Positions 25,466 to 26,035 of a stretch of DNA of 64,000 nt are shown here, one piece after another. Origin of the DNA: Bacteroidia bacterium (lineage in GTDB: Bacteria; Bacteroidota; Bacteroidia; J057); assembly GCA_022760475.1 (NCBI GenBank), contig JALEFZ010000055.1:372001-436000 (forward strand), given 5' to 3'. The notes under the pieces are model-generated. The model made no database searches. It had not been told where the DNA came from and worked only from the letters and a program-made list of their open reading frames with translations. A program made the translations under genes and the position numbers. Numbering within the stretch: the stretch's first letter is position 1; each line of letters opens with the position of its first letter.

Positions 25466-25552
25466 AGAGAGTTGCCAGAGCGGTCGATTGGGCACGCCTG
25501 GAAAGCGTGTGTACCTGCGAGGGTACCGAGGGTTCGAATCCCTCACTCTCTG
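25466..25552 (+). tRNA. tRNA-Ser (GGA anticodon)
   Basis: The acceptor stem AGAGAGT pairs with ACTCTCT (25545-25551), with G as discriminator. The anticodon stem CACGC/GCGTG holds the loop CTGGAAA, giving GGA, which reads UCC and UCU. A long variable arm and the T-arm AGGGTTCGAATCCCT follow, as expected for class II serine tRNA. Its last 17 bases plus one are repeated downstream at 25723-25739. Confidence 0.95.
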
Positions 25553-25553
25553 C
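25537..25553 (+). repeat. 17-bp direct repeat, copy 1 (tRNA-Ser 3' end)
   Basis: AATCCCTCACTCTCTGC covers the T-arm 3' strand, acceptor 3' strand and discriminator of the tRNA. It recurs exactly at 25723-25739. Confidence 0.9.
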
Positions 25554-25739
25554 AAGCAAAGAAAGTCTCCTGCGAGCGTAAGCGAGCAGGAGTTTTTGCG
25601 TTTCGAGGGAGTGTTGAAAGCCGAAGGTTTTCAAAAGCGAGGGAGAAATGCAAAAATCTGACCGCAGGGAAGAGACTTTTCTTTGCTTGTGCCTCCTCTC
25701 CCCCTTCGGGGATCACTTTAGTAATCCCTCACTCTCTGC
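25554..25739 (+). mobile_element. Palindromic element flanked by a duplicated tRNA 3' end
   Basis: A 169-bp segment plus the second copy of the 17-bp tRNA end. It appears to have split the tRNA from its terminator. Outer inverted repeats CAAGCAAAGAAAGTCTC (25553-25569) and GAGACTTTTCTTTGCTTG (25672-25689) pair with one bulged base. Inside lie three hairpins: CTCCTGC/GCAGGAG (25567-25573 and 25586-25592), TTTTTGCGTTTC/GAAATGCAAAAA (25593-25604 and 25645-25656, one mismatch), and nested within the latter TTGAAAGCC/GGTTTTCAA (25614-25622 and 25626-25634). No protein is encoded inside. The reading as an inserted element is inference from the duplication and the fold. A GIY-YIG nuclease gene lies immediately beyond the terminator. 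Confidence 0.6.
25723..25739 (+). repeat. 17-bp direct repeat, copy 2
   Basis: Exact copy of the tRNA-Ser 3' end, 186 bp downstream of copy 1 and 5 bp before the terminator stem. The restored order (tRNA, TTACC, terminator) is what an uninterrupted locus would look like. Confidence 0.9.
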
Positions 25740-25744
25740 TTACC

Positions 25745-25786
25745 AAACTACCCATTTTCCTTGTTTTCAAGGATGGGTAGTTTTTT
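25745..25786 (+). terminator. tRNA-Ser terminator
   Basis: Outer stem AAACTACCCAT/ATGGGTAGTTT (25745-25755 and 25773-25783) encloses TCCTTG/CAAGGA, followed by a T run (25781-25786). Confidence 0.8.
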
Positions 25787-25798
25787 ATTAAATGAAGC

Positions 25799-26035
25799 AT
25801 TACAACCATTTACTACACCTACATCCTCAAATCTGAGGCTTCGGGTAAGCACTACTACGGATATACCCAAGACCTCGAAGAACGCCTCATTCGCCACAAC
25901 GAAAACCGTGAGAGAGCCACGAAGAATCGTGGTCCCTGGAAGTTGATCTATCGTGAAGCCTTTCTTAGCCGGTCGGAAGCGATGCACCGAGAGAGGTATT
26001 TCAAGACCTTTGCATGGAGGAAATGGCTTAGATAA
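25799..26035 (+). CDS. GIY-YIG nuclease-like protein without a standard start codon, about 78 aa
   Basis: The frame reads Ile-Tyr-Tyr-Thr-Tyr-Ile-Leu-Lys-Ser, then His-Tyr-Tyr-Gly-Tyr-Thr-Gln-Asp-Leu-Glu-Glu-Arg-Leu-Ile-Arg-His-Asn, Gly-Pro-Trp-Lys-Leu-Ile-Tyr-Arg-Glu, and Ser-Glu-Ala-Met-x-Arg-Glu. This is the small stand-alone GIY-YIG family (UPF0213/YhbQ-like) with its Tyr, Gly, Arg, His, Glu and Asn positions kept. A TGA at 25793 blocks the frame upstream, and no ATG, GTG or TTG occurs before the conserved Tyr residues. An ATG at 25792 is in the wrong frame by one base. Either ATT at 25799 is used, or one extra A near 25804 makes it a fresh pseudogene. It lies just after the duplicated tRNA end and terminator. 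Confidence 0.65.
   Translation: MTTIYYTYILKSEASGKHYYGYTQDLEERLIRHNENRERATKNRGPWKLIYREAFLSRSEAMHRERYFKTFAWRKWLR

Follow-up and report, generated by a model that had tools for sequence, protein, structure and literature searches.

A palindromic unit behind a tRNA-Ser gene and its possible kinship with small GIY-YIG nuclease genes that adjoin tRNA genes

The tRNA-Ser(GGA) locus

The locus lies in a stretch of 64,000 nucleotides from a Bacteroidia bacterium (contig JALEFZ010000055.1, positions 372,001 to 436,000), which is called the window here; all coordinates are those of the window. It contains an intact tRNA-Ser(GGA) gene, a palindromic segment bounded by two copies of the tRNA 3' end, and an ORF for a small GIY-YIG protein, with the following features (evidence in parentheses).

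25466..25553, + strand: intact tRNA-Ser(GGA) gene, the putative target (ARAGORN; Rfam RF00005)
25537..25553, + strand: direct repeat copy 1, reaching from the T loop (its 3' side) through to the 3' terminus of the tRNA (sequence repeat)
25554..25569, + strand: outer arm A (sequence; DNA fold; complementary to its own arm A' in 20 elements)
25567..25597, + strand: terminator-like hairpin with a T run, inside the element (sequence; fold)
25593..25656, + strand: T-run/A-run helix (25593-25604 with 25645-25656) around a hairpin at 25614-25634 (DNA fold)
25672..25688, + strand: outer arm A' (sequence; arm pairing; DNA fold)
25698..25728, + strand: conserved right end CTCCC..GGGATCA..TAATCCC, a pseudo T-arm with an enlarged, hairpin-forming loop (motif search; hairpin folds)
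25723..25739, + strand: direct repeat copy 2, the duplicated tRNA-Ser 3' end (sequence repeat)
25746..25786, + strand: terminator-like hairpin 3' of the second repeat copy (sequence)
25799..26035, + strand: small GIY-YIG endonuclease ORF (PF01541; invariant residues; family start position 25808 is ATT)

A previous reading of the DNA letters, made without database searches (the sequence-only reading), had noticed the repeat and proposed that a unit was inserted into the tRNA end while restoring it. The 17-base 3' end of the tRNA-Ser(GGA) gene, AATCCCTCACTCTCTGC, is indeed present exactly at 25537-25553 and at 25723-25739, with a spacing of 186, and the terminator expected behind the second copy corresponds to the terminator-like hairpin at 25746-25786. 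No other piece of tRNA-Ser(GGA) of comparable length was found in the whole window. The 169 bases between the two copies are non-coding and palindromic, with exact 12-nt arms (25553-25564 and 25678-25689), and the outer arms surround the inner terminator-like hairpin and a second helix, in which a T run is paired with an A run. The RNA fold of this segment has an energy of -69.4 kcal/mol (z = -3.2), and none of 200 shuffled sequences was equally stable; for the DNA fold, z was -3.3 and 2 of the 200 shuffles were equally stable. When the palindromic element was searched against Rfam, the tRNA alone reached the threshold, and neither a known structured RNA nor a self-splicing intron was found. 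The search for the 169-bp segment elsewhere in its own genome, as the sequence-only reading had proposed, gave no further copy, and the segment is therefore present in a single copy.

The gene just beyond the repeat is a small GIY-YIG gene, as had been supposed: PF01541 (E = 2e-15) is the single Pfam domain and extends across nearly all of the 78 residues, and the residues that are invariant in 16 family members, the window ORF included (Y8, Y19, G21, R29, H33 and E65), are all kept. The tRNA-Ser gene lies about 250 bp upstream of this ORF. The ORF has no ATG, and ATT is found at 25808; ATG is located near the family start position in 89 of 98 relatives. No tRNA-Ser copy was found behind the ORF in the window. 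Because of the ATT start and the lack of a flanking tRNA copy, the gene may be in decay, or may have nothing to do with the palindrome found there now; from its sequence, we consider that it is probably decaying.

A family of palindromic elements at tRNA-Ser genes

The right end of the element forms a hairpin, GGGAT-C-A...T-A-ATCCC, which corresponds to a T-arm with an enlarged loop running into the tRNA 3' end; in one relative (L020), this end reads GGGTTCATGAAATAATCCC and the adjoining normal T-arm reads GGGTTCGAATCCC. We searched 395 genomes of the class for the right-end motif CTCCC-(4-7)-GGGATCA-(4-18)-AATCCC, with the reversed motif as a control, and obtained 29 matches in 21 genomes and none for the control. 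The location is nearly exclusive to tRNA-Ser: almost all matches are located 115-220 bp behind a tRNA-Ser gene (TGA, GGA or GCT) or behind a tRNA-Ser 3'-end remnant, at which the element begins in L098, L099 and L105, and at L101 and L106 no such tRNA was found in the DNA examined around the motif. Related elements are present behind tRNA-Ser in other genera and families (L019, L020, L094, L097, L102 and L109), and one genome that does not belong to the class also has the motif behind tRNA-Ser (L289). The repeat of these elements is often the 3' end of their own host tRNA, for example in L019, behind tRNA-Ser(TGA). Thus the elements which the sequence-only reading suggested looking for at other tRNA 3' ends do exist at other tRNA-Ser genes and isoacceptors, although "T loop of tRNA-Ser" is a more apt name for the target than "tRNA ends" at large. 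One locus, L008, had at first the look of a copy at a non-tRNA site, and this reading was dropped, since the locus is explained as the far end of an island in genome G005 that is inserted between tRNA-Ser and the element (see below).

The outer arms vary among genomes while their complementarity is kept. In 20 elements, the pairing of arm A with its own arm A' had a mean of -25.1 kcal/mol, compared with -14.2 kcal/mol for swapped arms, and none of 20,000 permutations was as good. Tandem tails were also observed, five of them in L107, and others in L108, L111 and elsewhere. As a separate observation, CATAAGCGCATTGCCATGCGTCGT-like units are repeated at length in tandem in L280 (G286:C12:370900-372100), and a repeat containing such units is also present behind the palindromic element in L094.

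The distribution of the element is patchy (21/395 genomes) and involves differing tRNA-Ser isoacceptors. Within one genus, G286 has the element at two tRNA-Ser genes, and its congeners G048 and G307 have a tRNA-Ser(GGA) gene without it; at three loci of the family to which the window belongs (L007, L011 and L012), tRNA-Ser(GGA) is followed by a simple terminator-like hairpin. The empty sites to be sought in relatives were therefore found. The proposal of an inserted, tRNA-restoring unit gains from these sites and from the family at tRNA-Ser 3' ends. Taken at the level of sequence comparison, these results support the view that the palindromic unit belongs to a family of putative insertion elements at the 3' ends of tRNA-Ser genes, for which relatives have empty sites.

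A phage origin was also considered and rejected: 37 viral stretches match the right-end motif, none of which has a tRNA T-arm within 260 bp upstream.

Small GIY-YIG genes and partial tRNA copies

The relatives of the GIY-YIG protein were gathered by protein similarity alone. Most members of the family have 75-95 residues and consist of the catalytic domain, with no evident DNA-binding or targeting domain besides. The nearest solved structures to the family profile are 1zg2 (E = 3.7e-15), 1ywl (5.6e-12) and SLX1 (1e-6), and no match was found in PHROGs, NCBIfam or PADLOC. The relatives included one viral contig and three phage records, and no plasmid.

These genes are tied to tRNA genes of many isotypes. 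Among the 98 GIY-YIG genes, 65 are within 300 bp of a same-strand tRNA gene and 2 of one on the opposite strand; in the validation set, the numbers were 15 of 18 and 0, respectively. Moreover, a partial copy of the same tRNA was present on the other side of the gene in 49 of the 65 cases, at a score reached by 1.6% of the other-locus controls and by none of the 65 reverse-complement controls. The layout is thus an intact tRNA gene, its trailer, the GIY-YIG gene and an incomplete copy of that tRNA, which a hairpin often breaks up. Many of the partial copies have a short hairpin (e.g. TCCGCC...GGCGGA or TCCCGA...TCGGGA) inside the D, anticodon or T arm or in place of it. The stems are individually only moderately unusual (24/52 at p < 0.05 against shuffles), but the recurrence of the hairpin sequence and its exact insertion weigh more than the single-stem statistics. 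In G113, for example, three tandem GIY-YIG units follow tRNA-Leu(TAA), every unit containing CCTGCCTGTTGCAGACAGG or a close variant, and the 19-bp hairpin sits exactly between the GGG and the TTC of the T-arm; its congener G279 has a bare site at tRNA-Leu(TAA) with no GIY-YIG units, that is, an empty allele (one case). In L123 (G126:C9:905000-913000), ten tandem units of a GIY-YIG gene and the 3' part of tRNA-Met, with a period of 457 bp, follow one tRNA-Met gene.

Two loci bear on the relation of the GIY-YIG genes to the palindrome. At tRNA-Ser in L153, a GIY-YIG gene is accompanied by a hairpin in the T-arm, which is the layout of the palindrome with the gene as cargo, and in L071 the order is tRNA-Ser, palindrome and GIY-YIG gene, as in the window.

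Some further observations concern these loci. In L135 (G027), a copy of tRNA-Arg(CCT) with hairpins in the D and T loops adjoins a GIY-YIG gene and the intact tRNA. In L240 (G144), behind tRNA-Leu(TAA), an ORF which on its sequence resembles a REP-associated (Y1) transposase lies between palindromes, in the place held by the GIY-YIG units in G113. The palindrome TCCGCCTNAGGCGGA, known from the partial tRNA copies, is dispersed in 29 of 198 genomes of the class, with up to 24 copies (its reversed control was present in one genome); a GIY-YIG match (E <= 1e-7) was obtained in 27 of these 29, which is suggestive as a raw count that ignores kinship.

Interpretation and comparison with known systems

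Our preferred explanation, to which we assign a probability of about one half, is that the unit at 25537-25739 is a non-autonomous element inserting into the T loop of tRNA-Ser, the gene-less counterpart of the tRNA-invading GIY-YIG elements, of which a probably decaying member would be its neighbour. The main argument for this pairing is the layout common to both, with an intact tRNA, a cargo and a broken copy of the same tRNA whose 3' part is intact. The unit would enter the T loop of the tRNA-Ser gene; since it brings its own tRNA 3' end together with a terminator-like hairpin, the tRNA gene would be restored on the left, and the right side would be left with a T-arm of broken (enlarged) loop and the tRNA 3' end that had been displaced. 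A small structure-specific GIY-YIG nuclease of the UPF0213/SLX1 type may cut the loop of the tRNA gene, perhaps in single-stranded and folded form, which the behaviour of the phage enzyme SegB (see below) and the nearest solved relatives, UPF0213 and SLX1, lead us to favour. Repair from an occupied copy would then insert the unit, and the hairpin in the leftover copy would destroy the cut site and so give protection. We infer the cutting, the repair route, the protection by hairpins and the movement of the palindrome by a GIY-YIG enzyme from these layouts and likenesses.

Several points count against this explanation. Four genomes (G001, G166, G172 and G195) carry the palindrome and have no GIY-YIG profile match at E <= 1e-7, and the idea that a GIY-YIG gene is a prerequisite for the palindrome is thus unsupported. 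The window gene lacks both an ATG and a flanking tRNA-Ser copy, the proteins consist of the catalytic domain with no evident targeting domain, and the intact tRNA stays uncut, for which the proposed protection gives no explanation. Finally, a tyrosine-recombinase island in G005 shares the T-loop core, so that an integrase could move the palindrome.

The last point leads to the strongest alternative, in which the palindrome is a minimal tyrosine-recombinase island, the 17-bp repeat being an att core served by an integrase in trans and the GIY-YIG gene an independent neighbour. Repeats that run from the T loop through the 3' end of the tRNA, as found here, are typical of integrase att cores. In G005 (L122 and L037; G005:C1, about 5652000-5692600), about 40 kb lie between an intact tRNA-Ser(GGA) and the palindrome, an ORF resembling a phage integrase is found on the tRNA side, and the same T-loop position marks the start of the remnant, an arrangement in which a tyrosine recombinase could move the palindrome in trans; the elements of L098 and L099 likewise start at a tRNA-Ser 3'-end remnant, and the four carriers without GIY-YIG matches also agree with this alternative. 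However, none of the examined elements has its own integrase gene, either inside it or next to it, and the 169-bp unit is too small for one, an att site needs neither a covarying folded body nor an enlarged T-arm loop, and the GIY-YIG elements repeat the same layout with hairpins at the D, anticodon and T arms. We regard this alternative as less probable than the preferred explanation, though as a serious rival.

The terminator-like hairpin, the strong fold and the compensating arms, together with the tandem tails in L107, L108 and L111, would also be expected of a functional and mostly vertically inherited tRNA-Ser trailer, acting as a structured RNA or as a terminator in both directions; its right end would then be what is left, after decay, of a partial tRNA that arose by tandem duplication. 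This is improbable in view of the patchy occurrence (21/395) at several tRNA-Ser isoacceptors, the congeners without the element at the same tRNA and the absence of Rfam matches at threshold other than tRNA; moreover, the T-arm is not plainly duplicated, its loop being replaced in a conserved manner. Hardly credible at all is a plain remnant of a tandem second tRNA-Ser gene, mostly deleted later, an alternative already named in the sequence-only reading: partial deletion would leave a bare tRNA 3'-end repeat, but independent deletions would not converge on the one right-end motif that stands behind tRNA-Ser in many genera and in at least one other class.

Returning to the T-loop-inserting element, a wider reading would join the palindromes and the GIY-YIG genes as minimal elements of tRNA genes: small structure-specific GIY-YIG nucleases and gene-less palindromes would invade at the D, anticodon or T loop, restore the tRNA with the half that they bring along and leave behind a copy broken by a hairpin and no longer open to cutting; the GIY-YIG enzymes may also spread the same short hairpins genome-wide. 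We put this forward tentatively, as falling short of even odds. The minimal tRNA-targeting system of nuclease and palindromic passenger, as first envisaged, is consistent with the small GIY-YIG genes tied to tRNAs and partial copies, but the four palindrome carriers without a GIY-YIG match speak against a simple dependence of the palindrome on the nuclease.

The element and its GIY-YIG neighbours point to tRNA-invading mobile DNA of a kind that has seldom been described. In the literature searched, phage and organelle cases were found, and there was no account of a chromosomal counterpart to the tRNA-homing phage GIY-YIG enzymes, of target-tRNA copies broken by hairpins next to a nuclease gene, or of a palindromic element that has no gene and is confined to the ends of tRNA-Ser; this novelty is provisional, since the search covered few subscription papers. 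If the interpretation is true, it would account for the incomplete tRNA copies and the odd small ORFs of GIY-YIG type that follow tRNA genes in many genomes, provide a model for an essential gene hosting a mobile element, and offer sharp sites for testing the recognition of folded DNA by tiny GIY-YIG proteins.

Among known systems, the nearest relative in behaviour is SegB, a free-standing GIY-YIG endonuclease of T-even phages, which cuts within tRNA genes at the preferred motif RAWTSGAAC and drives the tandem amplification of tRNA and segB (PMC13096335). Genes of SegB and other free-standing phage GIY-YIG homing endonucleases lie in tRNA clusters and are linked to many tRNA isotypes, and the 3' end of segB has microhomology with the tRNA 5' end (PMC13096335; PMC2988022). 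In our own comparison, the reverse complement of the SegB motif, GTTCSAWTY, coincides with the T-arm GTTCGAATC of the window tRNA-Ser, where the repeat begins. SegB and the small GIY-YIG family have in common the GIY-YIG catalytic domain, a gene in a tRNA region, and occupied and empty alleles (one case). In contrast, SegB is phage-borne and its nuclease activity is proven by experiment, whereas the small proteins, known from sequence, have 75-95 residues and no added DNA-binding domain, reside mostly on cellular contigs of several phyla, and are accompanied by hairpin-bearing partial copies of the same tRNA and by a gene-less palindromic counterpart.

The closest solved sequences to the family profile are the UPF0213 proteins and SLX1, both GIY-YIG proteins. 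SLX1 is a structure-specific nuclease, and we know of no description of UPF0213 or SLX1 proteins within tRNA-flanked repeat units. Tyrosine-recombinase islands at tRNA genes and their non-autonomous derivatives are alike in the 3'-end repeat that restores the tRNA, and the core is shared with the G005 island; the window unit differs from them in having no integrase inside, a conserved folded body and an enlarged T-arm loop at its right end. MITEs, and REP/BIME sequences with RAYT transposases, are likewise short, non-coding, palindromic and sometimes tandem. The window element has the terminal inverted repeats of a MITE, with its exact 12-nt arms and the complementary arms in 20 elements; unlike MITEs, which occur as many dispersed copies at non-specific targets, it is present once in its genome, behind tRNA-Ser, and the repeat that flanks it is the end of the tRNA, whereas MITEs and REP/BIME sequences are flanked by a short target duplication.
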